From Tardiphaga robiniae (GTDB lineage Bacteria > Pseudomonadota > Alphaproteobacteria > Rhizobiales > Xanthobacteraceae), in NCBI RefSeq assembly GCF_013359755.1, contig NZ_JABMCJ010000089.1, forward strand, positions 1 to 64,000: DNA of 64,000 bases, written 5' to 3'. Positions 2,337 through 20,146 of this stretch are shown here, one piece after another. The notes beneath the pieces were generated by a model. That model was not told the DNA's origin. It ran no database searches and saw only the letters and a program-made list of their open reading frames with translations. Position numbers and translations under genes: made by a program. Numbering within the stretch: the first letter of the stretch is position 1; each line of letters opens with the position of its first letter.

Positions 2337-3878
2337 ATGAACGGTGCGGAAAGCCTGGTGCGGACATTGGTGGCGGGCAATGTGGATGTCTGCTTTGCCA
2401 ATCCGGGAACGTCGGAAATGCATTTCGTTGCGGCGCTCGACCGCGTCGAAGGCATGCGCTGCGTGCTCGGCCTGTTCGAAGGCGTCGTCACCGGCGCGGC
2501 CGATGGCTACTTCCGCATGAAGGGCACCCCGGCCTCGACGCTGCTGCATCTCGGCCCCGGCCTCGCCAATGGCCTCGCCAACCTGCACAATGCCAAGAAG
2601 GCCAATTCGGGCATCGTCAACATCGTCGGCCAGCATGCCGTCTATCACATCGAATACAACGCGCCGCTGACCTCGGACATCGAGGGCCTCGCCCGTCCGA
2701 TGTCGCAGTGGGTGCACACCTCGCCGGATTCCAAGTCGGTGGCCAAGGACGGCGCCGCAGCAATTGCCGCCGCCAAGGATCGCCAGATCGCGACGCTGAT
2801 CCTGCCCGCTGACACCGCATGGGGCGCGGCTGACGGTGTGGCGCCGGTGCCGGCCGAGAAGCAGAGCGCCGGCTATTCGGCGCAGGCCGTCGAGACCGCC
2901 GCCAGGATCATGAAGGACGGTGGCGCCTCGACGCTGCTGCTGATGACCGGCCAGGGGCTGACCGAGAAGGGCCTGGCGCTGGCCGAGCAGATCGCCGGCA
3001 AGACCGGCTGCAAGGTGATGGGCCAGACCTACAATCCGCGCATGGCGCGCGGCCGCGGCCGGTTCTCCATCGACCGCATTCCCTATGTGATCGAAGCCGC
3101 ACTTCCGCTGCTGAAGGATTTCAAGAACATCGTGTTGGTGGAAGCCAACGATCCCGTGGCCTTCTTCGCTTATCCGAACAAGCCGAGCATGCTGAAGCCG
3201 GAAGGCTGCGAAGTGCATCGCATCACCGCCGGCGGCGAGAACTCGATCGCTGCGCTCGAAGCACTGGCCGGCGCGCTCGGCGCCAAGCCGTCGGATGTGA
3301 AGCCGCAGAAGCTCGCCGAACTGGTGAAGCCGACCGGCGCGCTGAACCACACCACGATTGCGCAGGCGATTGCCTATGCGATCCCGGAAAACGCCATCAT
3401 GGTCGATGAGTCGTTGACCACCGGTCGCGGATTCTTCCCGCCGACCGCAGCGGCTGCGCCGCATGACTGGCTGCAGAACATGGGCGGCTCGATCGGCTTC
3501 TCGACCCCGGTCGCCACCGGCGCCGCCGTGGCCTGCCCGGACCGCAAGGTGATCTGCATGGTTGGTGACGGCAGCGCGATGTACACGCTGCAGTCGCTGT
3601 GGACCCAGGCCCGCGAAGAGCTCGACATCACCACTATCGTGTTCGCCAACCGCAAGTATCAAATCCTGCTCGGTGAATTCGCCGGCGTCGATGCCGGCGA
3701 GCCGGGCCAGCGCGCCCTCGATATGCTCAACCTCGACCGTCCGACGCTCGACTGGGTGTCGCTCGCCAAGGGCATGGGCGTCCCCGGCGTTTCGGTGTCC
3801 AACGTCGACGACTTCAACAAGGCGCTCGCCAACGCGATCGCTGCGAAAGGTCCGAAGCTGATCGAAGTGGTGATGTAA
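2337..3878 (+). CDS. ThDP-dependent enzyme, acetolactate synthase large-subunit family
   Basis: 513 residues in the three-domain layout of ThDP enzymes. The N-terminal PYR domain carries the activating glutamate E48 (GLFEG). A central domain is followed by the C-terminal PP domain with the GDG motif at 410-412 (VGDGSAMYT) and a downstream N at about 438 (ANRKY) that closes the Mg-ThDP motif. The protein is shorter than biosynthetic IlvB (about 570-590) and has no small subunit beside it. A catabolic decarboxylase or carboligase (benzoylformate decarboxylase or oxalyl-CoA decarboxylase-like) is therefore as likely as true acetolactate synthase. It stands alone, with two hairpins behind it. Confidence is high for the family and low for the substrate. 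Confidence 0.85.
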   Translation: MNGAESLVRTLVAGNVDVCFANPGTSEMHFVAALDRVEGMRCVLGLFEGVVTGAADGYFRMKGTPASTLLHLGPGLANGLANLHNAKKANSGIVNIVGQHAVYHIEYNAPLTSDIEGLARPMSQWVHTSPDSKSVAKDGAAAIAAAKDRQIATLILPADTAWGAADGVAPVPAEKQSAGYSAQAVETAARIMKDGGASTLLLMTGQGLTEKGLALAEQIAGKTGCKVMGQTYNPRMARGRGRFSIDRIPYVIEAALPLLKDFKNIVLVEANDPVAFFAYPNKPSMLKPEGCEVHRITAGGENSIAALEALAGALGAKPSDVKPQKLAELVKPTGALNHTTIAQAIAYAIPENAIMVDESLTTGRGFFPPTAAAAPHDWLQNMGGSIGFSTPVATGAAVACPDRKVICMVGDGSAMYTLQSLWTQAREELDITTIVFANRKYQILLGEFAGVDAGEPGQRALDMLNLDRPTLDWVSLAKGMGVPGVSVSNVDDFNKALANAIAAKGPKLIEVVM

Positions 3879-4627: not shown

Positions 4628-5506
4628 TCACGTTGCCAAGTCCTCCGTCTGTTCGCTCCAGCGCAGATAGTCGCGTGGTGAAATTCCCATCGAGCGACGG
4701 AACATAGCGCTGAAGGCACTTGGACTATCATAGCCGAGATCGAGCGCCACATTGGTCACCGGCTCGCGCATGGTCAGGCGCGACAATGCTTCCATCAATC
4801 GCACCTGCTGGCGCCATTCGGCGAAGCTCATGCCGGTCTCGCGGCGAAACAGCCGCGTCAGCGTCCGTCGGCCGAGGCCGCCGATCTGCGACCAGGATTC
4901 CAGATCCTGATTGTTGCCGGGCTCGCGCAGGATCGCTTCACAGATACGCGCGAGGCGGCGGTCCTGCGGCATCGGCGCGCGCAGCGGCACGGCCGGCATG
5001 CGGCCGATTTCAGCGAGCATCAAATTCATGATCTGGCCTTCGCGGCCGTCCATATCGTATTCGGTCGGGAAGGTGACGGCCTCGTTGAGCAGCGCGCGTA
5101 CCAGCGACGACACTTCCATCAGCTGGCACGAGGTCGGCAGGCCGACCGTCGCGTCGGGTTCGACGTAAAGCGTACGGAGCTGCACGGTGCCCCAGCAGCG
5201 GCTTTGATGGACGACGCCGGGCGGGATCCACAGCGCATGCTGCGGCGATACGGTCCAGCTGCCGGTCTCGGTGATCACGGTCATGACCCCGGTCAGGCCG
5301 TGGAGAAATTGCGCGCGGCGGTGGCTGTGCCGGACTCCGACGCCGCCCGAGGAGAATTCGGCAGCCATCGCAACCACCGGGCGTTGTGCGGCCTGGAGTG
5401 CATCGGCGCGGCGGCCGCTGGCCTCGAAGCCGGAAAAACTCACCATGGCCGGCGGCGCGACGCGCTGGCGCGGCGTGTTGCACGAAATTGAAGAGATATG
5501 GCCCAT
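4628..5506 (-). CDS. AraC family transcriptional regulator
   Basis: About 292 residues. An N-terminal cupin sensor domain (RHSHRRAQFLHGLTG..., then WIPPGVVHQ) is followed by the C-terminal double helix-turn-helix of AraC/XylS proteins: GGLGRRTLTRLFRRETGMS as first HTH and the ALDLGYDSPSAFSAMFRRSMG signature as second. The ATG at 5506 is preferred, with AGGA upstream; a TTG nine bases earlier is possible. It is divergent from the 2-hydroxyacid dehydrogenase and the ABC operon behind it, which are its likely targets (inference). The 245-base gap holds a repeat element and the promoters. Confidence 0.9.
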   Translation of the reverse strand: MGHISSISCNTPRQRVAPPAMVSFSGFEASGRRADALQAAQRPVVAMAAEFSSGGVGVRHSHRRAQFLHGLTGVMTVITETGSWTVSPQHALWIPPGVVHQSRCWGTVQLRTLYVEPDATVGLPTSCQLMEVSSLVRALLNEAVTFPTEYDMDGREGQIMNLMLAEIGRMPAVPLRAPMPQDRRLARICEAILREPGNNQDLESWSQIGGLGRRTLTRLFRRETGMSFAEWRQQVRLMEALSRLTMREPVTNVALDLGYDSPSAFSAMFRRSMGISPRDYLRWSEQTEDLAT

Positions 5507-5621
5507 ACGCGACAAATCCTGACCCTGTGAAGACGGAGATGATGCGCCGACATCGTACCCTAGGATAGAGGTTTTGGGCGCATCGTTCCGGACGTTGCCA
5601 TTCTCAAAGCAGGCTTCATGC

Positions 5622-5727
5622 CACTAGCGCGTTTTCCAGCGAAGTGGGTACCGGTTCGCATTAAGAAAACGCGTAAAACGACAATCCTGAGCCCCGTTCC
5701 GATTCAATCGGAACGGAAAAGGCTCGG
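5622..5727. repeat. Intergenic repeat with two hairpins
   Basis: Arms CGCGTTTTC (5628-5636) and GAAAACGCG (5665-5673) form one hairpin. CGTTCCGATT (5695-5704) and AATCGGAACG (5706-5715) form a second, perfect one, bracketed by GAGCC and GGCTC. This build recurs in Bradyrhizobium-type gaps as far as I recall. A fragment of similar sequence appears around 3990-4025. Confidence 0.55.
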
Positions 5728-5750
5728 GCAGAAACAAACGCAGGAATTCG

Positions 5751-6680
5751 ATGACCCGCATTACTCTCATGACAACCCTGTCCAACACCATGGGCTTTCT
5801 GGAGGACCATCTGAAGCGGGTGGTTCCCGGCGCGCTCGTGACCACTTGGCCGGAAGAGGGGGCGCTCGATGGGGAGGTTGTGGTCTGCTGGAAACCACCC
5901 GCGGGCGTGATGGCGACTATGCCGAATTTGCGGCTGATCCATTCCATCGCCGCCGGTGTGGACAATGTGTTGTCCGACACGGCACTGCCGGACCTGCCGC
6001 TCTGCCGGATCGTGGATCCGCTGCTGGGTAGAGCGATGGCCGAATATGTGCTGTGGGGCACGCTGTATTTTCATCGCGAATTTGATCGCGTCTCCACCAA
6101 TGCCCGCAATGGGCACTGGCATCGCTACGATCAGGTCGCGGCCGCTGACAAGCGCGTCGGCATCCTCGGTCTCGGCACCCTCGGAATCCAGGCTGCCACG
6201 CTGCTGAAATCGGTTGGCTACGAGGTCTCCGGCTGGTCGCGCTCCGCAAAACAGGTCGAGGGTGTGGACGTCTTCGCCGGCGACGCCGCGCTCGACGATT
6301 TCCTGGTGCAGACCGACATCCTGGTCTGTCTGCTGCCGCTAACGCAGAGCACGGTGGGAATTCTGAATGCTGACCGTTTCGCCCGCCTGCCGAAAGGGGC
6401 GGCGCTTATCCTCTGCAGCCGTGGCGAGCACCTGAACGTTCCAGACCTCGTTGCCTCATTGCGATCGGGCCATCTGCGCGGCGCAATTCTAGATGTGTTC
6501 GACAAAGAGCCGCTGCAGCCCGACAATCCGCTGTGGACGGAGCCGGGTATTCTGGTGACGCCGCATATGGCCGGATTGGCCAAACCGCGCGTCATTGCCG
6601 ACCAGATTGCCGAGAATATCCGCCGTCTCAAGACTGGAGAGATTCTACTCAACCGCGTCGATCCGGCACGGGGATACTGA
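5751..6680 (+). CDS. D-2-hydroxyacid dehydrogenase, glyoxylate/hydroxypyruvate reductase type
   Basis: 309 residues, the usual length for GhrA-like reductases. It reduces 2-oxoacids (glyoxylate, hydroxypyruvate) with NAD(P)H or runs the reverse reaction. The Rossmann motif GLGTLG is at 140-145. The catalytic set of the family is intact: R224 (SRGEH), E253 (DKEPL) and H272 (TPHMAG). The N-terminal catalytic domain contains the AAGVDN motif. It lies 161 bases upstream of the first binding protein of an ABC operon, in the same direction and divergent from the AraC regulator, so it may process what the transporter brings in. The exact 2-oxoacid cannot be read from sequence. Confidence 0.85.
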   Translation: MTRITLMTTLSNTMGFLEDHLKRVVPGALVTTWPEEGALDGEVVVCWKPPAGVMATMPNLRLIHSIAAGVDNVLSDTALPDLPLCRIVDPLLGRAMAEYVLWGTLYFHREFDRVSTNARNGHWHRYDQVAAADKRVGILGLGTLGIQAATLLKSVGYEVSGWSRSAKQVEGVDVFAGDAALDDFLVQTDILVCLLPLTQSTVGILNADRFARLPKGAALILCSRGEHLNVPDLVASLRSGHLRGAILDVFDKEPLQPDNPLWTEPGILVTPHMAGLAKPRVIADQIAENIRRLKTGEILLNRVDPARGY

Positions 6681-6841
6681 AATCCCGCTCATTCACGGAG
6701 CAGGCTCGGTTCTCAGACAACGCGGGCCCGATCGCGACAATGATCGGCCCGGCGACAGCGGCGGCTTGAATTTTGCAAGCTCATCCTTGCGCGTCAGTGC
6801 AACCCTGACGTTCAACCCTCTGTGTCTATCGGGAGAGCTGA

Positions 6842-8428
6842 ATGAATCGACGTGAGTTCGCGAAATTGCTGGGTCTGAGCGCTACGGCGCTGTCGGGCGT
6901 CCCGCTCGGCATCGCCCGCGCCACGGGGCAGACCAGAGGCGGTACGCTCAATACGATCATTCAACCTGAACCGCCGATCCTGGTCACGGCGATCAATCAG
7001 CAACAGCCGACCCTCACCGTCGGCGGCAAACTCTATGAGAGCCTGCTGCGTTACGATTTCGATCTCAAGCCGATTCCCGGCCTCGCCAAATCCTGGGAGG
7101 TTTCGCCGGACGGGCTGACCTATACGTTCAAGCTGTTCCCGAACATCACGTTTCACGACGGCAAGCCGCTGACCTCGGAAGACGTGATCTTCACCATGAC
7201 CAAGGTGCTGATGGAAACCCATGCGCGCGGTCGCGTGACATTTGCGCGCATCGCAAAGGCGGAGGCGCCCGATCCGCTGACGGTGATCTTCACGCTGAAG
7301 TCGCCCTTCGCACCGTTCCTGACGTCGCTGGATTGCACCACGGCGCCGATCCTGCCGAAGCACATCTATGAGGGGACCGACTATCGCAAGAATCCCGCCA
7401 ATGCGCAGGCAATCGGCTGTGGTCCGTTCAAGCTCAAGGAATGGGTCAAGGGATCGCACATCCATTTTGTCCGGCACGAAGGATACCATCGGCCCGGCGA
7501 GCCCTATCTCGACGAAATCATCTACCGTGCGATCCCCGATGGTGCGTCGCGTACCGTGGCGGTCGAGCAGGGCAAGGTGCAGCTGACGCAGTGGGGCGAT
7601 ATCGAATTCTTCGAGGTGCCGCGGCTGTCGAAACTGCCGAATTACGAGGTGTCCACCAAGGGCTACGAGTTCTTTGCGCCGCATCAATGGATCGAACTCA
7701 ATAATCGCATCAAGCCGATGGACGACAAGCGTTTTCGTCAGGCCGTGATGCATGCGATCGACCGCAAGGCGATGCTGCAGCGAATCTATTTCGGGCTTGG
7801 CAAGCTGGCGACCGGCCCGATCTCGTCGAAGACACGGTTCTACGACAAGAACGTCAAAACTTACGACTACTCCGTCGACAAGGCGAAAGCGCTGCTCGAC
7901 GAGATGGGCCTGAAGCCGGGTCCGGACGGCAAGCGCGTCACGCTGCGCTATCTGATCTCGCCGGTCAGCGAGGCCAATACGCGGGCCGCCGAATTCCTGC
8001 GCCAGTCACTCGGGCGCGTTGGCATCGATCTGCAATTGCAGACCACCGATATCGCCGGCTGGGCGCAAAAGTTCGCCGATTGGGATTACGATATGACTGC
8101 CAACCTGGTTTACCAGTTCGGCGATCCCGCGCTCGGTGTGGCACGCACCTACATCTCGTCGAATATCAAGAAGGGCATCCTGTTTTCGAACACCGCCGGC
8201 TATTCCAATCCGGAAGTTGATCGCCTGTTCGAAGAAGCAGCCGTGGCGACATCCGATGACAAGCGGCAGGAGCTCTATAGTCAGGTCCAGAGAATTCTCG
8301 TTGAGGACGTTCCAGTGGTCTGGACGTTCGAGCAGGACTATCCGAACTTCATCGACAAGCGGCTGAAGAACGTGTTGTCGACGGCGATCGGGGTGCACGA
8401 GACATTCGGGGCGGTGAGTTTCGGATGA
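6842..8428 (+). CDS. Peptide-type ABC binding protein, tandem copy 1 (SBP family 5)
   Basis: 528 residues. The Tat signal peptide has RR at residues 3-4 (NRREFAK) and a hydrophobic stretch to about residue 23, followed by ARA. The body is a DppA/OppA-type cluster C binding protein, with the standard blocks Y-E-S-L-L near residue 65, FHDGKPLTSEDV and GCGPFKLKEW. Such proteins capture di- or oligopeptides, nickel chelates, opines or other solutes in the periplasm. It is the first of three homologous copies before a single set of permease and ATPase genes. It differs from the other copies at many third positions and at some residues (GCGPF where the others have GSGPF), so the duplication is not recent. 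The specific solute is unknown. Confidence 0.92.
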   Translation: MNRREFAKLLGLSATALSGVPLGIARATGQTRGGTLNTIIQPEPPILVTAINQQQPTLTVGGKLYESLLRYDFDLKPIPGLAKSWEVSPDGLTYTFKLFPNITFHDGKPLTSEDVIFTMTKVLMETHARGRVTFARIAKAEAPDPLTVIFTLKSPFAPFLTSLDCTTAPILPKHIYEGTDYRKNPANAQAIGCGPFKLKEWVKGSHIHFVRHEGYHRPGEPYLDEIIYRAIPDGASRTVAVEQGKVQLTQWGDIEFFEVPRLSKLPNYEVSTKGYEFFAPHQWIELNNRIKPMDDKRFRQAVMHAIDRKAMLQRIYFGLGKLATGPISSKTRFYDKNVKTYDYSVDKAKALLDEMGLKPGPDGKRVTLRYLISPVSEANTRAAEFLRQSLGRVGIDLQLQTTDIAGWAQKFADWDYDMTANLVYQFGDPALGVARTYISSNIKKGILFSNTAGYSNPEVDRLFEEAAVATSDDKRQELYSQVQRILVEDVPVVWTFEQDYPNFIDKRLKNVLSTAIGVHETFGAVSFG

Positions 8429-8468
8429 CGTTGAACGTTTCAAATATCTTTGCTACAAAGGAATTAAG

Positions 8469-10055
8469 ATGAATAGACGTGAATTCGCGAAACTATTGGG
8501 TTTGAGTGCGACTGCGCTTTCGGGAATTCCTCTCGGCGTCACCCGCGCCGTCGGTCAGACCAAGGGCGGTACTCTCAACACGATCATCCAGCCCGAGCCG
8601 CCAATCCTGGTGACCGCGCTCAACCAGCAGCAGCCGACGTTGACGCTGGGCGGCAAGATCTATGAGAGCCTGCTCCGCTACGGCGCCGATCTCAAGCCGC
8701 TGCCCGGTCTCGCTGAGTCCTGGACCGTTTCACCCGATGGCCTCGTCTATACGTTCAAGCTGTTTCCAGGCATCACCTTCCATGACGGCAAGCCGTTGAC
8801 GTCGGAAGACGTGGTGTTCTCGGTGACCAAGGTCCTCGTCGAAACCCATGCGCGTGCACGCGGCACCTTCCTGCGCATCGAAAAGGCTGAAGCGCCCGAT
8901 CCACTCACGGTCGTGTTCACGCTGAAGGCGCCGTTCGCGCCGTTCCTCAATTCGTTCGATTGCACGACAGCGCCGATCGTGCCGAAGCATATCTATGACG
9001 GCACCGATTTCCGCAAGAACCCTGCCAATGCGCAGGCGATCGGCTCGGGCCCGTTCAAGCTCAAGGAATGGGTCAAGGGCTCGCATGTCCATCTCGTCAA
9101 ACACGAGGGCTATTACCGCAAGGGCGAGCCGCATCTCGACGAGATCATCTATCGCGTGATTCCGGACGGCGCATCGCGCGCCGTCGCGCTCGAACAGGGC
9201 AAAGTCCAATTGACGCAGTGGACTGACGTCGAACTGTTCGACGTCGCGCGTCTATCGAAGCTGCCCAATGTCGAAATGACCACCAAGGGCTACGAGTTCT
9301 TCGCGCCGCATTTCTGGCTGGAGTTCAATCTTCGCGTCAAGCCGATGGACGACAAGCGTTTTCGTCAGGCGGTCATGTTCGCGGTCGATCGCAAGGCGCT
9401 GCTGCAACGCGTGTTCTTCAATCTCGGGAAGGTGGCGACCGGACCAGTTTCGTCGAAGACCCGGTTCTACGAAAAAGATGTCAAGCAGTACGACTACTCG
9501 CTGGACAAGGCGAAAGCCCTGCTCGACGAGATGGGCCTGAAGCCCGGTGCTGACGGCAAGCGTGTCAGCATCAAATTCCTGGTTCCGCCCTATGGCGAAA
9601 TCTGGCAGCGCTCGGCCGAATTCTTCAAGCAATCGCTCGGTCGTGTCGGCATCGATCTGCAACTGGAAAATCTCGATCTCGCCGGCTGGGCCGAGCGCAC
9701 CAGCAACTGGAATTACGAGATCACCTGCAATCTGCTTTACCAGTTCGGCGATCCGGCGCTGGGCGTGTCGCGCAGTTACATCACGGCGAATATCCGTAAG
9801 GGTATTCTGTTCTCAAATATCGCGGGCTATTCCAATCCGGAAGTAGACCGGCTATTCGAGGAAGCCGCCGTGGCGACCTCTGACGCAAAACGTCAGGAAC
9901 TCTACACGGCCGTGCAGAAAATTGTCGTAGAAGAAGTCCCGATCGCATGGATGGTCGAGCAAGACTTCCCCAACTTCATCGACAAGCGGTTGAAGAACGT
10001 CATCACCACCGGCATCGGTGTGCACGAGACTTTTGGAGCCGTGACGCTCGGTTGA
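8469..10055 (+). CDS. Peptide-type ABC binding protein, tandem copy 2 (SBP family 5)
   Basis: 528 residues, collinear with the copies on either side without visible insertions or deletions. The twin-arginine leader (NRREFAK) is the same, showing export of a folded protein. The ligand region around residues 270-300 (FFAPHFWLEFNLRVKPMDD) and the segment 375-395 (FLVPPYGEIWQRSAEFF) differ from copy 1, where the selectivity of such proteins usually lies. It starts 40 bases after copy 1 and is followed by a strong hairpin before copy 3. It probably widens the solute range of the shared transporter (inference). Confidence 0.92.
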   Translation: MNRREFAKLLGLSATALSGIPLGVTRAVGQTKGGTLNTIIQPEPPILVTALNQQQPTLTLGGKIYESLLRYGADLKPLPGLAESWTVSPDGLVYTFKLFPGITFHDGKPLTSEDVVFSVTKVLVETHARARGTFLRIEKAEAPDPLTVVFTLKAPFAPFLNSFDCTTAPIVPKHIYDGTDFRKNPANAQAIGSGPFKLKEWVKGSHVHLVKHEGYYRKGEPHLDEIIYRVIPDGASRAVALEQGKVQLTQWTDVELFDVARLSKLPNVEMTTKGYEFFAPHFWLEFNLRVKPMDDKRFRQAVMFAVDRKALLQRVFFNLGKVATGPVSSKTRFYEKDVKQYDYSLDKAKALLDEMGLKPGADGKRVSIKFLVPPYGEIWQRSAEFFKQSLGRVGIDLQLENLDLAGWAERTSNWNYEITCNLLYQFGDPALGVSRSYITANIRKGILFSNIAGYSNPEVDRLFEEAAVATSDAKRQELYTAVQKIVVEEVPIAWMVEQDFPNFIDKRLKNVITTGIGVHETFGAVTLG

Positions 10056-10087
10056 AGATAGGGTCACTCAAAGTCACTTGATGACTC

Positions 10088-10123
10088 GGCTGCAGCCAGA
10101 TGTGCAAGCGTCTGGCTGCAGCC
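10088..10123 (+). other. Intergenic hairpin between binding-protein copies 2 and 3
   Basis: Perfect 13-bp stem (GGCTGCAGCCAGA, 10088-10100, with 10111-10123) and a ten-base loop, 32 bases behind copy 2. No T-tract follows, so it is better read as an mRNA 3'-end stabiliser or processing point than as a terminator. Similar hairpins follow other binding-protein genes in this window. Confidence 0.7.
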
Positions 10124-10154
10124 ACTGTTAGATGCACTGTTAAAGGACTAGGTT

Positions 10155-11741
10155 ATGAATAGACGTGAATTCGCAAAGCTGATGGGCGTGAGTGCGGTTG
10201 CGCTCTCGGGTATCCCCCTCGGCATCACTCGTGCCGCTGGTCAGACCAAGGGCGGCACGCTGAACACGATCATTCAGCCAGAGCCTCCGATTCTCGTCAC
10301 TGCACTTAACCAGCAGCAGCCAACGCTGACCCTGGGTGGCAAGATCTATGAGAGCCTGCTGCGTTACAGCCCTGACCTCAAGCCGCTTCCCGGTCTCGCA
10401 CAGTCGTGGGAAGTGTCGCCGGACGGCCTGACCTATACGTTCAAGCTGTTTCCGGGCATCACCTTCCACGACGGCAAGCCGCTGACGGCGGACGATGTCA
10501 TCTTCTCGATGACCAAGCTGCTGCCGGAGACCCATGCACGTGCGCGCGGGATTTACTCGCGTATCGAAAAGGCAGACGCGCCGGATCCGCTCACCGTGGT
10601 GTTCAAGCTGAAGTCGACCTTTGCCCCGTTCCTGACCGCGCTCGACTGCACGACGGGTCCGATCGTGCCGAAGCATATCTATGACGGCACGGAATATCGC
10701 AAGAATCCGGCCAATGCGCAGGCGATCGGTTCGGGCCCGTTCAAACTCAAGGAATGGGTGAAGGGCTCGCACGTTCATCTCGTCAAACACGAAGGCTATT
10801 ACCGCAAGGATCAGCCGTATCTCGACGAAATCATCTACCGCATCATTCCCGACTCGGCGTCACGCGCCGTTGCGCTGGAGCAGGGCAAGATCCAGCTGAC
10901 GCAGTGGAACGACATCGAAATGTTCGATGTGGCGCGGCTGTCGAAGCTGCCGAATTTCGAGATGACCACCAAGGGCTACGAATATTTCGCACCGCATCAG
11001 TGGCTCGAGCTCAACAACCGCATCAAGCCGATGGACGACAAACGTTTCCGTCAGGCTATTGCCTATGCGCTCGATCTGAAATCGATGGCACAGCGCGTTT
11101 ACTTTGGTCTGCCCAAGGTTGCGACCGGTCCGGTGTCGTCGGCGACCAGGTTCTACGAGAAGGACGTCAAGCGTTACGATTACTCGTTGGACAAGGCGAA
11201 GGCGCTGCTCGACGAGATGGGGCTTAAGCCGGGTGCCGGCGGCAAACGCGTTACCATCAAGTATCTCACCCCGCCTTATGGTGAAATCTATCAGCGCGCG
11301 GCCGAGTTCATTCGCCAGTCGCTCGGCCGCGTCGGCATCGACGTGCAGATCGAGAACACCGATGTCGGTGGCTGGGCGGAGAAGTTCAGCAACTGGGACT
11401 ACGAGATGACCGGCAATCTGGTCTATCAGTTCGGCGATCCCGCGCTCGGCGTGTCGCGCACCTACATCTCGTCGAATATCAAGAAGGGCATCCTGTTCTC
11501 GAATACGGCAGGCTATTCCAATCCGGAAGTCGACCGTCTGTTCGAAGAGGCTGCAACATCGACCTCCGAGGCCAAGCGTCAGGAACTGTACAGTCAGGTG
11601 CAGAAGATCCTGGTCGAGGACGTGCCGGTGGTCTGGATGTTCGAGCAGGCTTATCCGACGTTCATCGACAAGCGCCTCAAGAACGTGACTACAACAGCGA
11701 TCGGCGTGCATGAATCGTTCAGCGACGTGAGCTTCGGATGA
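10155..11741 (+). CDS. Peptide-type ABC binding protein, tandem copy 3 (SBP family 5)
   Basis: 528 residues, again with the NRREFAK Tat leader and the same domain order as the two preceding copies. By eye it shares features of both: GSGPFKLKEW as in copy 2, and APHQWLELNNRIKPMDD close to copy 1, so it may be an intermediate or a gene-conversion product. Its stop overlaps the permease start as ATGA at 11738-11741, tying its translation directly to the membrane component. Copies 1 and 2 are separated from the permease genes. This copy may set the stoichiometric baseline of the transporter; that is inference. Confidence 0.92.
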   Translation: MNRREFAKLMGVSAVALSGIPLGITRAAGQTKGGTLNTIIQPEPPILVTALNQQQPTLTLGGKIYESLLRYSPDLKPLPGLAQSWEVSPDGLTYTFKLFPGITFHDGKPLTADDVIFSMTKLLPETHARARGIYSRIEKADAPDPLTVVFKLKSTFAPFLTALDCTTGPIVPKHIYDGTEYRKNPANAQAIGSGPFKLKEWVKGSHVHLVKHEGYYRKDQPYLDEIIYRIIPDSASRAVALEQGKIQLTQWNDIEMFDVARLSKLPNFEMTTKGYEYFAPHQWLELNNRIKPMDDKRFRQAIAYALDLKSMAQRVYFGLPKVATGPVSSATRFYEKDVKRYDYSLDKAKALLDEMGLKPGAGGKRVTIKYLTPPYGEIYQRAAEFIRQSLGRVGIDVQIENTDVGGWAEKFSNWDYEMTGNLVYQFGDPALGVSRTYISSNIKKGILFSNTAGYSNPEVDRLFEEAATSTSEAKRQELYSQVQKILVEDVPVVWMFEQAYPTFIDKRLKNVTTTAIGVHESFSDVSFG

Positions 11742-12760
11742 CGGCGGTGTCGGTCGATGCAAAAGGCGATCGCGTGTTCGCGATCGCTCTCGCGCTCGCG
11801 GGATGGGTTATCAAATTCATCGCGGTCGTTCTGGTCATTGCGACCTTCAACTTCATTCTGGTGCACGCCGCACCCGGCGATCCCGCGCAGGTCATCGCCG
11901 GCCAGAGCGGCGCCTCCGACGAAAAGCTTCTGGCGCAGCTGCGCGCTGAATACGGCCTCGACAAGCCCTATCCGATTCAGCTCGCCACCTATCTGAAGCG
12001 CGTCGTGACGCTCGACCTTGGTTATTCCTATCGCCAGCAGCGGACCGTGGCGTCGCTCATTCTCGAGCGCTTGCCAGCGACGCTGCTGCTGACGGCGACG
12101 GCTTTCAGCCTCGCGCTTCTGTCAGGCATCATTCTTGGCACGCTGGCCGGTGTCCGCGCCGGCAAGTGGTCCGACACGGTGCTGACCGTCGTGTCGTTGC
12201 TGCTTTATGCAACGCCGGTGTTCTGGCTTGGCCTGATGCTGGTGTTGCTGTTTTCGGTGCAACTCGATTGGCTGCCGGCGTTTGGCTATGTCACCATCGG
12301 TGTGCCGATGACCGCACTGCAGCGCATGGTCGATATCGGCTGGCATTTGATCCTGCCCGCCGTGTCGCTCGCAGCGGTGTATCTCGCGATCTACACGCGT
12401 CTGATGCGCTCTTCGGTGCTGGACGTTACCCATCAGGACTTTATCAAGACCGCCAAGGCCAAGGGCCTGAAGCAGGGCCGTATCATCATTCGACATATCC
12501 TGCGCAATGCGATGCTGCCGATCGTGACTGTCGCCGGCATGCAGGCCGGTGCGCTGGTTGGCGGTGCGGTGGTGATCGAGACTGTGTTTGCGTGGCCGGG
12601 TCTCGGACGTCTGATTTATGACGCTCTATTGCAGCGCGACTATCCGGTGCTGCTGGGCGTGTTCCTGGTGATGTCGGTGATCGTGATCGCGCTCAACCTT
12701 CTTACCGATGCGATCTACCGGGTGATCGATCCGCGCGTGTCCGTGCGTGCGGCATCGTGA
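11738..12760 (+). CDS. ABC transporter permease, DppB type
   Basis: 340 residues with six predicted membrane helices and the BPD_transp_1 fold. The first helix (GWVIKFIAVVLVIATFNFILVHAAPGDPA) is followed by the periplasmic loop typical of DppB/OppB. The cytoplasmic EAA-like coupling loop is visible as AKAKGLKQGRIIIRHILRNA near residue 240. It forms the membrane channel with the next gene product. The start overlaps the preceding stop by four bases. The N-terminus is about 20 residues longer than typical DppB and begins MTAVSVDAKGDRVF. Confidence 0.93.
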   Translation: MTAVSVDAKGDRVFAIALALAGWVIKFIAVVLVIATFNFILVHAAPGDPAQVIAGQSGASDEKLLAQLRAEYGLDKPYPIQLATYLKRVVTLDLGYSYRQQRTVASLILERLPATLLLTATAFSLALLSGIILGTLAGVRAGKWSDTVLTVVSLLLYATPVFWLGLMLVLLFSVQLDWLPAFGYVTIGVPMTALQRMVDIGWHLILPAVSLAAVYLAIYTRLMRSSVLDVTHQDFIKTAKAKGLKQGRIIIRHILRNAMLPIVTVAGMQAGALVGGAVVIETVFAWPGLGRLIYDALLQRDYPVLLGVFLVMSVIVIALNLLTDAIYRVIDPRVSVRAAS

Positions 12761-12770
12761 ACGGGATTAT

Positions 12771-13604
12771 ATGATGTCTACGCTCAAATCGTTTCTCCGC
12801 CATCCCACCGGGATGATTGGTCTAATCGTCCTCCTCGCGGTGGTCCTCCTCGCGGTGACGGCTCCGTGGCTGTTCCCCGACGACCCCTGGGATATGGTCG
12901 GCGCGCCGTTCCAGCCGCCGTTCAGCGAAGGGCTCTGGCTCGGCTCCGACATGCTTGGCCGTGACGTGGCTGCCGGCATCGCGCATGGCGCCCGCATCTC
13001 GCTGATCATCGGCGTCATCTCGACGCTAACCTCCCTGGTCATCGGTGTCACCATCGGCGCAACCGCCGGCTATTTCGGCGGCAAGGTTGATGAGGTGATG
13101 ATGCGTATCACCGAGCTGTTCCAGACCATTCCGGGCTTCATTCTCGCAATCCTGCTGGTCGCGACCATCGGGCCGAAAATCTCCAATATCATCTTCGCGA
13201 TCGGCATCGTCAGCTGGCCGCCACTGGCACGCCTGACGCGCGCCGAGTTCATGCGGCTGCGTGGGCGTGAATTCGTCCAGGCTGCGGTGTGTCAGGGCCA
13301 GCGTCCGCTGACCGTAGTGCTGCGTCGCATTCTGCCGAACGCGATCTCGCCGATCATCGTCACCGGATCGCTGGCGGTCGCCAGCGCCATCCTGATCGAG
13401 AGCGCGCTGAGCTTCATGGGTCTTGGCGATCCCAATCTGATGTCATGGGGCTTCATGATCGGCGCCGCGCGCACCGTGATCCGTCAGGCATGGTGGATGA
13501 GCGTATTTCCCGGTCTCGCCATCCTGCTCACCGTGCTCGCCATCAATCTCGTGGGTGAAGGTCTCAACGACACGCTGAACCCCCGTATCTCACGCAAGCG
13601 ATAG
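12771..13604 (+). CDS. ABC transporter permease, DppC type
   Basis: About 277 residues, the second membrane subunit of the same importer. The N-terminal OppC-type helix (MIGLIVLLAVVLLAVTAPWLF) is followed by the DMLGRDV motif found in this subunit family, five further helices, and an EAA-like coupling loop (FVQAAVCQGQRPLTVVLRRILPNA). ATG 12771 or 12774 lies 10-13 bases after the stop of the DppB-type gene; the upstream in-frame GTG at 12747 would overlap that gene by 14 bases and adds no conserved residues. Confidence 0.92.
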   Translation: MMSTLKSFLRHPTGMIGLIVLLAVVLLAVTAPWLFPDDPWDMVGAPFQPPFSEGLWLGSDMLGRDVAAGIAHGARISLIIGVISTLTSLVIGVTIGATAGYFGGKVDEVMMRITELFQTIPGFILAILLVATIGPKISNIIFAIGIVSWPPLARLTRAEFMRLRGREFVQAAVCQGQRPLTVVLRRILPNAISPIIVTGSLAVASAILIESALSFMGLGDPNLMSWGFMIGAARTVIRQAWWMSVFPGLAILLTVLAINLVGEGLNDTLNPRISRKR

Positions 13605-13609
13605 CATTC

Positions 13610-15265
13610 ATGATAGACAAAACACTGCTTGCCATCGAGAACGTCTCTATCAGCCTGCCGCCGGGTGCTGATCGTCCTTTCGCCATCGAAGACGTATCGC
13701 TCACCGTCAATCGCAACGAAATCGTATGTCTGGTCGGTGAGTCCGGCTCCGGCAAGTCGATGACTGCGCATGCGATCCTGCGACTGCTGCCCGACCGAAC
13801 GGGCGTTGCGCAAGGCAGCATCAGCTTCAACGGCAATGACATCGCCAAGGCGGACGAGCCGACAATGCGCAAGCTGCGCGGCGGCGCCATTTCGATGATC
13901 TTCCAGGAGCCGCTCAGCGCGCTCAATCCGCTGGCCCGTGTCGGCCAGCAGATTGCGGAATCGATCATCACACACACCAAGCCGACGCCGTCCAAAGAGG
14001 CGGTGGATGCGCGTGTGCAGGAGTTGATCCGGGACGTTGGCCTGCCGGATCCGGTGGCGCTCGCGCGCAGCTTTCCGTTCCAGCTCTCGGGCGGCCAGCG
14101 TCAGCGCATCATGATCGCGATGGCGATGGCGAATAATCCGGCGCTGCTTCTTGCAGACGAGCCGACCACCGCGCTCGACGTGACCACGCAGAAGCAGATT
14201 CTGGCGCTGGTGAAGAAGCTCCAGTCGGAGCGCGGTATGGGCGTGCTGCTGATCACCCACGATTTTGGCGTCGTTGCCGATGTCGCTGATCGCGTCGTGG
14301 TCATGCGCAACGGCCGTGTCGTTGAGCAGGGCACCGTCGACGAGGTCCTGCGTAATCCGAAGGACGATTACACCAAGAGCCTGATCGCCGCCGTCCCCGG
14401 CGCGCGCTCGCTGACCAAAGCCGATCGCAAGATCACCGGTGAGCCGTTGCTCGATGCGGTCGGGCTGAACAAGACCTTCATCACCAAGCAGGGCATGTTC
14501 CTGCCGCCGCGCCGGACCGATGCGGTGCAGAACATCTCGCTCGGCCTGAAGGCGCGCGAGACGGTGGCCATCGTCGGCGAGTCCGGGTCAGGCAAGTCCA
14601 CGCTGGGGCGGTTGATCATGCGGCTGATCGAGCCTGACACGGGCTCAGTTCATTTCGATGGCAAGGATCTGCTGTCACAGCGTGGCGAACGATTGCGCCA
14701 GATGCGCCGCAAGATTCAGATCGTGTTCCAGGATCCCTTCGCGGCGCTCGATCCGCGCCAGAAGGTCGGCGACGCGATTGCCGGCGGCCCGATTGCCTAT
14801 GGCACGCCCTCCAAGGAAGCCATGGCCGATGCCAAGCGCCTTCTGGCCCGCGTCGGCCTGCAGGAGAGTGCGGCCAATCGCTATCCGCACGAATTCTCCG
14901 GCGGTCAGCGCCAGCGTATCTGTATCGCCCGTGCACTGGCCCTGAAGCCTTCGGTGCTGGTCGCGGACGAAGCCGTCTCGGCGCTCGACGTGTCGGTGCA
15001 GGCGCAGGTGCTGCAGCTTCTCGCAGAACTGCGCGAGGAGATGAACCTCGCCATGATCTTCATCACCCATGACTTGCGTGTCGCCGCTGAAATTGCCGAC
15101 CGCATCGTGGTGATGCGGCGCGGCGAGATCGTCGAGCAGGGCGAGACGCAGAAGATCTTCCAGAATCCCACCGACGCCTATACCCGCGCGCTGCTGGATG
15201 CGATTCCCGGCCGTGCGATGTTTGCCGGTCCAGGTGCCAGGCAGGCAGAAGTCGCTTCCGCATAA
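13610..15265 (+). CDS. Fused double ABC ATPase, DppD-DppF type
   Basis: 551 residues that carry both nucleotide-binding domains of a peptide-type importer in one chain. Domain 1: Walker A GESGSGKS near residue 43, signature LSGGQRQR, Walker [13 protein letters not shown]. Domain 2: Walker [10 protein letters not shown] near 325, signature FSGGQRQR, Walker B VLVADEAVSALD. In the second Walker B, Ala replaces the usual Pro after the catalytic Glu; the Glu itself is retained. It energises the permease pair just upstream (five-base gap). The same fused design is used by the 16476 transporter, whereas the 47209 system has two separate ATPases. Confidence 0.93.
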   Translation: MIDKTLLAIENVSISLPPGADRPFAIEDVSLTVNRNEIVCLVGESGSGKSMTAHAILRLLPDRTGVAQGSISFNGNDIAKADEPTMRKLRGGAISMIFQEPLSALNPLARVGQQIAESIITHTKPTPSKEAVDARVQELIRDVGLPDPVALARSFPFQLSGGQRQRIMIAMAMANNPALLLADEPTTALDVTTQKQILALVKKLQSERGMGVLLITHDFGVVADVADRVVVMRNGRVVEQGTVDEVLRNPKDDYTKSLIAAVPGARSLTKADRKITGEPLLDAVGLNKTFITKQGMFLPPRRTDAVQNISLGLKARETVAIVGESGSGKSTLGRLIMRLIEPDTGSVHFDGKDLLSQRGERLRQMRRKIQIVFQDPFAALDPRQKVGDAIAGGPIAYGTPSKEAMADAKRLLARVGLQESAANRYPHEFSGGQRQRICIARALALKPSVLVADEAVSALDVSVQAQVLQLLAELREEMNLAMIFITHDLRVAAEIADRIVVMRRGEIVEQGETQKIFQNPTDAYTRALLDAIPGRAMFAGPGARQAEVASA

Positions 15266-15306
15266 AAAAGCCCACCAGACGCAGGTTACCGCGTCCGGTG
15301 GGCTTT
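15264..15306. terminator. Bidirectional rho-independent terminator
   Basis: A 13-bp stem with one mismatch (GCCCACCAGACGC, 15270-15282, with 15291-15303) is flanked by six A on the left and TTT on the right. It lies between the convergent ends of the ABC operon and the TctC-type gene and can stop transcription from both sides. Confidence 0.9.
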
Positions 15307-15322
15307 CGTGTGTTCGCTCGGA

Positions 15323-16300
15323 TCAATCCAGCTTGACGTTGGCCTCGGTCACGACCTTGCGCCAGCGCGCCACCTCGGCCGACACCATCTTGCCGAAGTC
15401 GGCGCCGGCCACATCAGGCACGTCGGAGCCATTGCGCTCCCACGCTTCCTTGATCGCCGGCACCTGCAATGCAGTTTTCAATTCCTTCGCCATGCGCTCG
15501 ACCACGTCGGGCGGTGTGCCCTTGGGGGCGAACAGCCCGTACCAGGTGGCGACTTCATAATTCGGCAAACCGGCTTCCGCCGCGGTCGGCAGATCGGGGA
15601 AGGCTGCCACGCGCTTCGGAGCGGCAATCGCTAGCGCGCGGAGTTGCCCCGCGCGGATTGGCGCGGCGGACGAGCCGAGACCGTCGAACACGACGGGCAC
15701 GTGACCGGCGATCAGGTCCTGCATTGCCGGTCCGGCGCCGCGATAGGGCACGTGCTGGATCTTCGTCTGGGTCAGGATCTTGAACAGCTCGCCGGCTAGG
15801 TGATGCGTCGTGCCGGCGCCGGCCGATCCATAAGAGAGCTTGTCCGGGTTGGCCTTCGCATAGGCGATGAATTCACCCAGTGTCTTGGCGGCGACCTTGT
15901 CTGGATTGACCACGATAACCTGTGGCGGCCGTGCGATCAGCGCCACCGGGATGAAGTCTTTCTCGATGTCATAATCGAGGGTGGGATAGAGCGACGGGGC
16001 GATCGCGTGATGCGCGGCACCCATGAAGAAGGTATAGCCGTCAGGCGCCGCCTTGGCAGCCGCCGAAGCGCCGACCGTGCCCCCGGCACCGGCGCGGTTT
16101 TCGATGATGACGCGCTTGCCAAGCTGGGTATCGAGCTGCGCCGCCAGTGGCCGCGCAAAGGCATCGGTGCCGCCGCCGGCAGCGAAGGGAACGATGAAGG
16201 TGACTTGTTTCTGCGGCCACTGGGCGTGCGCGCCGGTCGTGATCGCAGAACAGCTCGCCATGACGGCAAGCAAGGCAACGTGAACGGCTTTGATCCGCAC
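15323..16300 (-). CDS. TctC/Bug-type periplasmic binding protein
   Basis: 325 residues with a Sec signal peptide (cleavage near TGAHA-QW). The fold signature of tripartite tricarboxylate transporter receptors is clear: VTFIVPFAAGGGTDAFARPLA at the mature N-terminus, VIENRAGAGGTVGA, and LSYGSAGAGTTHHLAGELF in the middle. Such proteins bind carboxylates or other small acids. No TctA or TctB membrane gene is present in the window, so it is an orphan, as many Bug proteins are. The GTG start at 16300 is supported by GGGAGGA at good distance. It is followed by a shared terminator. Confidence 0.9.
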   Translation of the reverse strand: MRIKAVHVALLAVMASCSAITTGAHAQWPQKQVTFIVPFAAGGGTDAFARPLAAQLDTQLGKRVIIENRAGAGGTVGASAAAKAAPDGYTFFMGAAHHAIAPSLYPTLDYDIEKDFIPVALIARPPQVIVVNPDKVAAKTLGEFIAYAKANPDKLSYGSAGAGTTHHLAGELFKILTQTKIQHVPYRGAGPAMQDLIAGHVPVVFDGLGSSAAPIRAGQLRALAIAAPKRVAAFPDLPTAAEAGLPNYEVATWYGLFAPKGTPPDVVERMAKELKTALQVPAIKEAWERNGSDVPDVAGADFGKMVSAEVARWRKVVTEANVKLD

Positions 16301-16475
16301 GGAATCCTCCCGATTTTATTGCGTCATTGGGGACGCTTAGTCTTATGTTCTGCGAGATAAGGCGCGGATGCAAGGTATCCGGCACCGGTATAACTCACAC
16401 TATAGTCGGTATGGTTACGCCAATGGAACCGGACAAGGCTGTCCGTTGAGGCGTTTAGCCGCTAGCCACCCGCGG

Positions 16476-18161
16476 CTAGGCGCCGGCGGCCATTTTTTCT
16501 GCGGCGATCATCTCGATATGCGGAACTGCATCGACGAGCTCGCGGGTGTAGTCGGTCTTCGGGCTGTCGAACAACTGGTGACTCTCGCCTTCTTCGACGA
16601 TGGCGCCGTTGCGCAGCACGATGGTCCGCTGGCACATCATGCGCACGACGTTGAGATCGTGGCTGACGAACAGGAAGGCGAGATTGTCTTCGCGGCGCAA
16701 ACGATCGAGGAGCTGCAACACCACGGCCTGAACGGAAACGTCGAGCGCGGCCGTCGGCTCGTCCAGCACCAGAAGCTTCGGCCGGCAGGCAATCGCGCGC
16801 GCGATGCCGATACGGGCCTTCTGGCCACCCGAGAGCTGGTGCGGAAACCGTTCCAGCAGATTGGCGGGGAGGCCGACGCGATGAGCACATTCGCCGACGC
16901 GCCGGCGCAGCGCCGCCCCATTGCGCATGCCGAGCAGGCGGATCAGCGGATGCGCGATACAGTCGAAGGCGTTGAAGCGCGGATTGAGGCTGTCGTTCGG
17001 ATCCTGGAAGACAATCTGGATCTCGCGGCGCTGCGGCGCCTGGTGGAATTCGCGCGCGGGAATATGGCTGATTGACTGCCCATTGAAATTGATGACGCCT
17101 TCGGTCTGATCGAGCAAACGGCAGATCATGCGCGAGGTCGTACTCTTGCCGGAGCCGGATTCGCCGACAAGTCCAACGCTTTCGCCAGGCGCAATCGCCA
17201 TCGAGAAATTCTCGACGCCAACAGTGCCGTCGTCGAAACGTTTGACGAGATCGAGAACTTCCAGCAGCGGCGGCGTGCCATGCGCCGGCTTTGGCGGCGG
17301 AGCGAGGGGGACGGCCGGTACCAGCAGCTTCTCGTCGTCGGTCACGAGATCCTCGACCCGCGAGGTTGCGGTTGGCGACGCTGCGACGAGCCGCTTGGTG
17401 TAGGGATGCTGCGGCGACCGGAACAGCGTCAGGGCGTCGGCCTCCTCGACCAGTCTGCCCTGTTCCATCACCACGACGCGGCGGCAATAGCGGGCGGCGA
17501 GGCCGAGATCGTGGGTGATGAGGATCGTCGCCATACCCCGCTCGGCGGCGATGCTGGCGAGGAGATCCATCACTACCTTTTGCGTGGTGACATCGAGGCC
17601 GGTGGTCGGCTCGTCGGCGATCAGCAGCGCCGGATTGCTGGAGATCGCCATGGCGATCATGACGCGTTGGCACATGCCGCCAGAGAGCTCGTGCGGATAC
17701 GCGTTCATCCGCTTCTCTGGATCGCGGATTTTCACCGCCCGCAGCAGTTCGAGGGACTCTGCGCGGGCCTCGGAGGCGGAGATCTTGCGATGCGCGAGAA
17801 TGGCATCGGCGATCTGCTGGCCGATGGCGCGGATCGGGTTCAGCGCGCCGCGCGGATTCTGGAAGATCATGGCCATCGCCGAGCCGTGCATCTCGCGCAG
17901 GCTGGCGCTCGTCATCTTGGTAATGTCGCGATCACGGAAACTGATGCGGCCGCCGGAAATTTTACCCGATGCATCCAGCAGGCGCGTCATCGCAAAACCC
18001 GTGACGGATTTTCCGGAGCCGCTCTCACCGACGATCCCCAGCGTTTCTCCCTCGGCAAGCGACAACGAAATTCCGCGCACGGCCTCAACCGGGCCGCGGC
18101 GCGTTGAAAAGGTGACCTGAAGATTCTCGATATCGAGCAGCGGTTTTGGTGTCGTCATCAC
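16476..18161 (-). CDS. Fused double ABC ATPase, second peptide-type transporter
   Basis: 561 residues with two complete ATPase domains. Domain 1: [39 protein letters not shown]. Domain 2: [40 protein letters not shown]. The linker carries a Pro-rich stretch ([15 protein letters not shown]). All catalytic residues are kept. Translation can begin at GTG 18161 or ATG 18158, both overlapping the stop of the preceding permease. It is the last gene of the transporter part of the leftward operon. A 7-bp hairpin overlaps its stop codon (16456-16478). Confidence 0.92.
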
Positions 18162-19006
18162 GTTCGCTGTCTCGGATCAAGAATATCACGCAGCCCGTCG
18201 CCGAGCAGATTGAAGCAAAGCACGGCGAGCATCAGCGCCAGGCCGGGAAACGCGACCAGCCACCATTTGCCGGTGGAGATGAAACGCGCGCCTTCCGCGA
18301 CCATGATGCCCCATTCCGGCGTCGGTGGTTTCACGCCAAGGCCAATGAACGAGAGACCGGCGGCATTGATGATGGCCCAGCCGAGATTGAGCGACATCTG
18401 CACCACCATTGCCGGCAGCACGTTCGGCAGCAAAAAGCGCAGTACGACGGAGATATGGCTGTCGCCGCAGGCGCGCGCGGCCTCGACCCAGCCGAGGTTG
18501 CGGCGGACGTTCACTTCGGCACGTGCAAAGCGAATGTAGAACGGCAGGTTGATGATGGCGGTGGCGATGACAATGTTCTCGACGCGATTGCCGAGGGCAG
18601 CGACCATGGCCATGGCCAGTACGAACAGCGGGAAGGCCATCAGCACGTCGACGAAGCGACCTACGGCGCGATCGAGCTTGCCGCCCGAATAGCCGCAGAG
18701 GGCACCGATGACGGCGCCCAGCGCGAAGGAGATGCCGACCGCAGAGACGGCGATGGCGAGGTCGAGCTGTGCGGCGACGATGATGCGGCTGAACACATCA
18801 CGGCCGAGCTGGTCGGTGCCGGCCCAATGCGCGGCACTCGGCGGCATCAGGGCGTTTTGAACGTTCGATGCGATGGGATCATAGGGTACGATCCACGGAC
18901 CGAAGATGCCGACAAAGATCAGCAGCGCGGCGCCGATGGCGGCGATGCCGGTGATGGGGTTGCCACGCAGGATGAAGGCGGCGTGTTGAAGTGTTGCGCT
19001 GCTCAT
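18158..19006 (-). CDS. ABC transporter permease, DppC type
   Basis: 282 residues. The OppC-type first helix (ITGIAAIGAALLIFVGIFGPWIV) precedes the GTDQLGRDVFSR motif typical of the subunit. About six membrane helices and an EAA-like loop (WVEAARACGDSHISVVLRFLLPN) follow. Its start overlaps the stop of the DppB-type gene by four bases and its stop overlaps the ATPase start, so three genes form one coupled translation unit. Confidence 0.92.
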   Translation of the reverse strand: MSSATLQHAAFILRGNPITGIAAIGAALLIFVGIFGPWIVPYDPIASNVQNALMPPSAAHWAGTDQLGRDVFSRIIVAAQLDLAIAVSAVGISFALGAVIGALCGYSGGKLDRAVGRFVDVLMAFPLFVLAMAMVAALGNRVENIVIATAIINLPFYIRFARAEVNVRRNLGWVEAARACGDSHISVVLRFLLPNVLPAMVVQMSLNLGWAIINAAGLSFIGLGVKPPTPEWGIMVAEGARFISTGKWWLVAFPGLALMLAVLCFNLLGDGLRDILDPRQRT

Positions 19007-20034
19007 CCGATGGAAATCCTGGGATCGGCAATGCCATAGAGCACATCGACGACGAGATTGACGATAACGAAGACCGACGCCATTAACAGCACGAAGCCCT
19101 GCACCGGTGCATAGTCCGACGACAGCAGCGCATCGAGCGCGTAGGAGGCGACGCCGGGCCAGGAAAACACTTTCTCCACCAGCACATTGGCGCCGAGCAT
19201 GGTCGAGAACACGATGCCGGCAATGGTGATGACAGGCAGGATCGCATTACGCAGCGCATAGGTGACGATGATGCGCCACCATGACAGGCCGACAGAACGC
19301 GCGGTGCGAACGAAGTCGCTGCCGAGCGAGGCCAGCATCGAGGCGCGGGTGATACGCGCCAACGGGGCGATCACAAACAGCGCCATGGTGCAGGCCGGCA
19401 GGATCAATTGCTTGAACGCGGCCCACCAGCCATCGAAGTCGCCGGCGAGCGCAAAGTCGATCAACAGGAAGCCGGTATGTGCTGGCGGCAGGGTCGTGAA
19501 GATATCGACGCGCCCGGTCGGATCGGGCGACACGCCGAACAGATAATAGAATATATAGATCAGCAGCAGGCCCGACACGAAGGTCGGGACACAGACCCCG
19601 AGCGCGCAGAAGAGCCTCACGCCATGATCGACCAGCGATCCTGGTTTCAGCGCTGCAAGGACACCCAGCGGGATTGCGAGAACAAGTGCGATCAGAAGTG
19701 CCGAGAAGGTGAGTTCGAGGGAGGCCGGCAGGCGCTCACGCAAGTCCTTTGTGACGTTCTGGCCTGTCATCAGCGAACGGCCAAGATTGCCGCGGCCGAC
19801 GTCATACAGATAAAGGAACAGTTGCTGTGGCACGGGCTTGTCGAGACCCATCTGTTTGCGGATGGTCTCGATCTCTTCCTTGCCGGAGTTGGGTCCCGAG
19901 GCAAAGAACACGGCGGGATCACCCGGCAATACGCGCATCAACAGGAAGGTGAAGATCAGCACGCCGAACAACGCAGGCAAGGAGGATGCGAAGCGTCGCG
20001 CTGCACGGATGGCCGTTGCGCCGAGAGTCGTCAT
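19003..20034 (-). CDS. ABC transporter permease, DppB type
   Basis: 343 residues. The first helix (FASSLPALFGVLIFTFLLMRVLPGDPA) with its LPGDPA end is diagnostic of DppB/OppB subunits, and the large periplasmic loop and EAA-like region (RTARSVGLSWWRIIVTYALRNA) are in place. It forms the channel with the DppC-type subunit. Its start is 112 bases behind the binding-protein stop; the gap contains a hairpin that may separate the expression levels of the two. Confidence 0.92.
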   Translation of the reverse strand: MTTLGATAIRAARRFASSLPALFGVLIFTFLLMRVLPGDPAVFFASGPNSGKEEIETIRKQMGLDKPVPQQLFLYLYDVGRGNLGRSLMTGQNVTKDLRERLPASLELTFSALLIALVLAIPLGVLAALKPGSLVDHGVRLFCALGVCVPTFVSGLLLIYIFYYLFGVSPDPTGRVDIFTTLPPAHTGFLLIDFALAGDFDGWWAAFKQLILPACTMALFVIAPLARITRASMLASLGSDFVRTARSVGLSWWRIIVTYALRNAILPVITIAGIVFSTMLGANVLVEKVFSWPGVASYALDALLSSDYAPVQGFVLLMASVFVIVNLVVDVLYGIADPRISIG

Positions 20035-20093
20035 GATCGGTTACTCGTAGTCATGGGCAGCTCGCTGAAGTTAAGTTCGCAAGCTGCGTAGAT

Positions 20094-20120
20094 CCGAAGC
20101 GCCGCTGAGGGGCGCTTCGG
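20094..20120 (-). other. Intergenic hairpin behind binding-protein gene
   Basis: Perfect 10-bp stem CCGAAGCGCC (20094-20103) with 20111-20120 and a seven-base loop, 27 bases 3' of the binding-protein stop and before the permease genes. No T-tract in the direction of transcription. Likely an mRNA stabiliser or partial attenuator. Confidence 0.65.
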
Positions 20121-20146
20121 GATTCGCTCGCATGGTGCTCGGATGA

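Follow-up and report, generated by a model that had tools for sequence, protein, structure and literature searches.

Three tandem binding-protein genes and a conserved stem-loop in front of a single Opp/Dpp/Nik-type importer in Tardiphaga robiniae

The 64,000-nucleotide stretch of Tardiphaga robiniae DNA analysed here (the window) carries three homologous binding-protein genes, S1, S2 and S3, in a row in front of one set of transporter genes. It is fairly probable that this array was built stepwise, that its three predicted exported binding proteins serve one Opp/Dpp/Nik-type importer, and that S1 and S2 are made in excess. All three proteins would dock on the same permease, and their ligands would belong to one class of small polar compound, in sets that overlap without being equal; the array would thereby tune range and affinity instead of adding unrelated substrates. 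In the course of its growth, S2-type and S1 genes would have been inserted in front of S3, and a conserved stem-loop behind S2 would protect the upstream S1-S2 message, leaving S1 and S2 in excess of S3, the permeases and the ATPase. The features of the locus are as follows:

4628..5515, minus strand: AraC-type regulator (Pfam HTH_18 and cupin; synteny)
5751..6680, plus strand: GhrA-like 2-hydroxyacid dehydrogenase, adjoining S1 upstream (Pfam 2-Hacid_dh_C; synteny)
6842..8428, plus strand: S1 binding protein, 528 aa (Pfam SBP_bac_5)
8469..10055, plus strand: S2 binding protein, 528 aa (Pfam SBP_bac_5)
10088..10123, plus strand: S2-S3 stem-loop, 16 bp, GCAA loop (fold; pair counts on 8 junctions)
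10155..11741, plus strand: S3 binding protein, 528 aa, stop overlapping the permease B start (Pfam SBP_bac_5)
11738..12760, plus strand: permease B, DppB/NikB-like (Pfam BPD_transp_1)
12747..13604, plus strand: permease C, DppC/NikC-like, start uncertain (Pfam BPD_transp_1, OppC_N)
13610..15265, plus strand: fused double ATPase (Pfam ABC_tran in two stretches, oligo_HPY)

The first-pass annotation had described three binding proteins of the same length in a row before one transporter set, and both the intact ORFs and their order were confirmed. The three proteins align over 528 columns with zero gaps and no internal stops, and their pairwise identity is 78% (S1-S2), 79% (S1-S3) and 81% (S2-S3). 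Each matches SBP_bac_5 with an E value of 3.5e-85 or better, and a twin-arginine motif was recognised by eye in the leader (MNRREFAKL...). With an SBP_bac_5 binding protein, a permease pair of the Dpp/Nik kind and a double ATPase, the locus has the parts of an importer of the Opp/Dpp/Nik type (profile searches of permease C used the in-frame first base at 12756), and several homologous binding proteins beside one transporter give it the layout of a multi-binding-protein importer. Pseudogenes and assembly repeats were ruled out, since the three ORFs are intact and their order recurs in four other genomes. The S3-permease overlap resembles the junction of the sole binding protein in the inspected single-copy relatives, where the spacing to permease B is 0 or 2 bases in all seven loci (L013, L014, L078, L081, L022, L016, L024). 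Promoter-like sites show no excess (2 found, 3.1 expected from shuffles), which speaks against the preferred reading.

The AraC-type regulator, divergent from the array, is a neighbour in the five triple arrays and in several single-copy loci. The best NCBIfam match of the dehydrogenase is GhrA, with a score below the GhrA cut-off, and a similar gene is a neighbour in the other four triple arrays, L081 and L024. It is whole upstream of S1 in the four triple arrays other than L010; in that locus (L010:5432-5953) it is shortened, only the first part matching and the end lying near the S1 start. The genome has, on a different contig, an importer with 50% identity to this one, and beside it stands a further 2-hydroxyacid dehydrogenase gene, 37% identical to that of the window (L083:11994-12902). 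A thiamine-pyrophosphate enzyme gene was seen upstream of the importer in the window (2337-3878), in L013 (7115-8701) and in L016 (8314-9924). Behind the array lies a TctC-type binding protein gene (window 15323-16300, minus strand), with no tctAB seen beside it, whose position is kept in ten compared loci (L009-L011, L013, L014, L019, L076-L078 and the window). Directly behind, on the opposite strand to the array, lies another importer of this class (window 16476-21763, minus strand), complete and equipped with a binding protein of its own; the gap between its binding-protein and permease genes folds as two stems. The same genome carries further neighbouring family-5 binding-protein genes at G000:C68:40959-44089 (L005, L006; 41% mutual identity) and G000:C69:19947-22877.

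Among 18 genomes of the genus (G000-G017), close relatives of the binding proteins, counted at E 1e-200 or better, occur in 13. Three copies are present in five of them (G000, G001, G002, G005, G016), with S1, S2 and S3 in the same order in the four loci besides the window (L009, L010, L011, L076); two adjacent copies in G013 and G015; in G014, two neighbouring copies and, on a separate contig, a partial one; and one copy in G007, G009, G010, G011 and G012. At this threshold no relative was found in G003, G004, G006, G008 and G017; G003, G004, G007, G008 and G015 are only 77-87% complete, hence absence from these carries little weight. A family-wide sample of 391 genomes, in which the genus is counted, gave matches in 31; of these, 18 lie outside the genus and carry one copy each (three candidates scored per genome). 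Outside the five triple arrays no S1-type copy was found, whereas the S2 clade also takes in the sole copy of G011, that of L019 and, from loci with two copies (L077, L021 and L079), the first. The adjacent pair of G014 consists of an S2-type and an S3-like gene; its two S3-like copies are 87% identical, and the genome is listed with 6% contamination. G014 was rejected as another triple, as two contigs each bear a permease B start and the two starts differ. In L019 (8074-8219; MAG PMG_244) an in-frame remnant joining the S3 start to the last S3 codons sits between the stem-loop and permease B; since the genome is a MAG, it could be an assembly error. Among the papers listed by literature searches none on this three-copy array was seen, and none of the ten listed by one of these searches mentions Tardiphaga.

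Nei-Gojobori counts (made by script, values of dS near 1 being rough) gave dS 0.92-1.01, dN 0.118-0.145 and dN/dS 0.12-0.14 among the window copies, and dS 0.86-1.46 and dN/dS 0.10-0.15 among those within the four sister arrays. The same S1 or S2 compared across the five triple genomes differs by dS of only 0.14-0.34 (dN 0.003-0.009, dN/dS 0.010-0.039), far below the distance between copies, so the copies predate these species. The many synonymous differences reported earlier were borne out (pS 0.53-0.56), as was an old duplication with the order before one transporter kept, in five genomes, under purifying selection. A protein tree of 56 rows resolves S1, S2-type and S3-type proteins as one clade each across genomes. 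Closer relatives of each copy outside the locus had been named as evidence against the duplication; such relatives do exist, but the nearest is the same copy at the same place in a sister species, which dates the duplication and does not refute it.

The annotation had further proposed that collinearity and equal length may be maintained by gene conversion. Continuing conversion among the three copies is highly improbable: synonymous divergence is high along the whole gene, even in codons 1-40 (pS 0.47-0.60), the three types stay in separate clades across genomes, and near-equal length is the norm of the family, full-length relatives being only a few columns off S3 (46 rows, 529 columns). What speaks for it is a leader in which 7 of 30 columns differ among the copies while 19 of 30 vary among single-copy relatives, the union of the copies by their N-terminal part in the tree, and shared polymorphic runs only slightly above shuffles (p 0.30 for S1-S2, 0.009 for S1-S3 and 0.025 for S2-S3; three tests, uncorrected). 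Recent conversion is hence disfavoured, but the N-terminal part may have undergone exchange at an earlier time. A second question of history is posed by S2, whose place in the tree fits poorly with one duplication in place and to that extent weakens the preferred reading. S2-type proteins join the only copy of G011 (97/27, not firm) and the first copy of G014 (100/99), while S1 and S3 pair (93/63) and, further out, are joined by ARR65-, G169- and Rhodopseudomonas-type proteins. It is conceivable, if on balance doubtful, that the origin is mixed, S2-type being resident and the S1/S3 ancestor having been acquired from a relative through recombination, or with the roles exchanged; in that case the three genes would not simply have arisen by duplication in place. 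Such an origin concerns history and is compatible with the preferred reading. Full-length sequences do part S2-type from S1/S3: in a tree of 43 rows, a constraint that keeps the 26 binding proteins of the genus in one group costs 18.7 log units (p-AU 0.033), or 48.9 without the protein of G011 (p-AU 0.014), although the tested group was picked once the tree had been seen. In the permease/ATPase tree the genus loci stay together (13 rows, 100/100; G011 outermost, long outgroup branch flagged). The two parts of the binding protein were also analysed separately: residues 1-290 unite all genus copies (97/90); for residues 291-529 a quick tree groups S2-type with L024 and Phreatobacter-type proteins (SH-aLRT 99), a grouping that receives 64/40 in a careful tree, where one genus clade is neither rejected (p 0.256) nor supported. 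Two histories within one binding protein are thus possible, no lateral origin being claimed, and an old duplication followed by losses accounts for the same pattern.

The copies had also been said to differ most in ligand-facing regions, a claim that proved weak. With domain limits set by hand from those of BbOppA4 (PMC5736914, as excerpted) and from predicted secondary structure, the third domain is indeed richer in columns that differ among the window copies (77/221, elsewhere 77/307; Fisher p 0.016). However, the single-copy relatives, too, are more variable there than in domains I and II (46% of columns as opposed to 34-35%; leader 63%), and per-column variability of copies and relatives is correlated (rho 0.49). 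Diversification of the ligand site is therefore unsupported, which tells against the preferred reading; the pattern of differences is mostly the family's own, and S1 is the most derived copy. The same tracking of ordinary variability, strong purifying selection and a stem-loop suited to raised S1-S2 output would fit copies that bind the same ligand and are kept for more binding protein alone, perhaps under different conditions. We judge this dosage-only explanation somewhat unlikely, as the copies are 19-22% different from each other while S1 and S2 are each 98-99% identical across five genomes, and as 41 copy-type changes (21 in S1, 7 in S2, 13 in S3) are fixed at columns where 18 or more of the 19 single-copy relatives agree. 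On the preferred reading, with unequal ligand sets, a substrate range widened by the three copies is plausible by analogy with precedents of multi-binding-protein importers.

The 99-base gap between S2 and S3 contains the 16-bp stem with its GCAA loop; no stable stem was found in the S1-S2 gap (-3.1 kcal/mol). Across 8 aligned junctions, including L019 with its S3 remnant, 99.2% of cells are paired, against 27-48% in slid controls. There are 18 double-sided pair changes (0 of 500 shuffles as high), changes on both sides in 8 of the 16 stem pairs (5 of 500) and a covariation score of 0.549 (0.317 in shuffles, sd 0.034; 0 of 500). One of five covariation measures, further pair types, is not above control (17; 135 of 500 shuffles as high) and weighs against the preferred reading. 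G014 has a shorter stem at this position, and upstream of S3 a less regular stem is present in three genomes that have no other copy. A repeat element or a known RNA family was discarded, as the stem-loop sequence matched only its own place in the genome and Rfam gave no match up to E 0.1 in window 5500-16400. Two other importers of the same genome have stems behind the binding-protein gene (z -3.3 and -3.0 with base shuffles, here -5.7), hence such stems are not peculiar to the array; its distinctive point is the position between two binding-protein genes. In Clostridium, operon stoichiometry is set by stem-loops (PMC8219983, as excerpted). The array shares with such selective RNA processing and stabilization operons a stable, conserved intergenic stem-loop inside the operon, behind genes perhaps needed in excess, and the S2-S3 stem-loop may set how much of each binding-protein version is made. 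The operons of that source are those of Clostridium and Bacillus.

The S3 slot behaves differently from its neighbours. Identity between the window and L009 or L011 is 92-98% over S1 and 90-98% over S2; from near position 10400 until S3 ends it drops to 81-86%, and it recovers to 86-93% in permease B. Accordingly, S3 shows dS of 0.60-0.70 and dN of 0.058-0.062, against 0.14-0.34 and 0.004-0.009 for S1 and S2; in the ATPase dS is also raised (0.42-0.48) but dN is not (0.011-0.013). By their S3 proteins, L009 and L011 cluster with genomes that have two copies or one (93/95); by permease C plus ATPase, in contrast, the five triple genomes cluster together (100/99.9), and forcing the S3 tree to agree with the latter grouping gives p-AU 0.071. 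These comparisons suggest, but do not prove, that S3 was replaced in some species. Conversion from S1 or S2 was rejected as the source of the two S3 alleles, as no clear donor appears among the 38 fixed differences: the S2 majority has the window-type state at 16 and the other state at 11, and S1 at 15 and 14. Outgroups make the window-type state the derived one at 13 of these differences and the other state at 22.

The predicted fold of S3 (mean pLDDT 74.1, pTM 0.77) resembles structures of cluster C (Z up to 36; 454 residues at rmsd 2.6), and sequence and fold together place S3 in this cluster, whose members have peptides, opines, nickel complexes and other small compounds as ligands. Each copy is matched by eleven NCBIfam models, but with scores far short of the cut-offs (at best 188.3 bits where 650 are required), and none of the three reaches the curated cut-off of a named subfamily (DppA, NikA, GsiB, CntA, Opp4A). 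In OppA an Asp docks the amino end of the ligand (PMC5736914, as excerpted). In HMMER alignments Gln425 stands opposite the Asp of 6ofq and 8are, both peptide complexes; the aligned residue is Glu in AgaA and Met in 5isu, both of cluster C. The position of the docking Asp of peptide-binding DppA/OppA proteins is taken by Gln425, which is invariant in 46 of 46 family rows (two of them at 47-51% identity) and argues weakly against ordinary free-amine peptides. Genes for gamma-glutamyltranspeptidase (L016, L030) and M20 peptidases (L016, L028, L030) lie near single-copy relatives (L016:15205-16782, L016:7040-8338, L030:15150-18713, L028:15125-16561) and are a possible hint at the importer substrate; a scan of 22 window proteins showed neither enzyme. 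Behind the L026 transporter, the two proteins tested were GGDEF and NTP_transf_5, and the one tested behind that of L024 was an alpha/beta hydrolase.

Importers with more than one binding unit have precedents. GlnPQ reportedly carries tandem substrate-binding domains fused to the permease, while the binding proteins of the array are separate and predicted to be exported. In Pseudomonas aeruginosa, DppA1-A5 share DppBCDF and have overlapping ligand profiles, DppA1 and DppA3 being 83% identical; as in the array, several family-5 binding proteins go with one permease/ATPase set, and DppA1-A4 lie near it (PMC4206461, as excerpted). There, as far as the excerpt describes it, the genes form no uninterrupted tandem row, DppA5 lies elsewhere and the ligands are known, whereas here all three are tandem. 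Closer in layout is Borrelia burgdorferi, in which OppA1-OppA3, differing in the binding cavity, are encoded by three tandem genes of one opp locus, with fewer copies in relatives and a history of duplication and loss (PMC5736914, as excerpted). According to the same excerpt, the Borrelia system departs from the array in that its proteins are lipid-modified and retain an Asp or Glu at the docking site, that their genes have promoters of their own, and that plasmids carry two more copies.

This kind of array is already known, and the understanding of such importers is unchanged in kind. A bolder and unlikely extension would make the locus a modular cassette, in which the permease-coupled, ancestral S3 slot could be swapped whole by recombination, genes before the stem-loop would be made in excess, abundant S1 and S2 would scavenge beside a scarce, coupled S3, and the ligand may lack a free amine, the docking position being an invariant Gln. 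If this were true, duplication would have given an importer that began with tight coupling an abundant layer of scavenging proteins, S1 and S2. Close relatives with one, two and three copies, together with a deletion remnant, form a series tracing the growth of a multi-binding-protein importer, and the stem-loop offers a testable RNA element for dosage.
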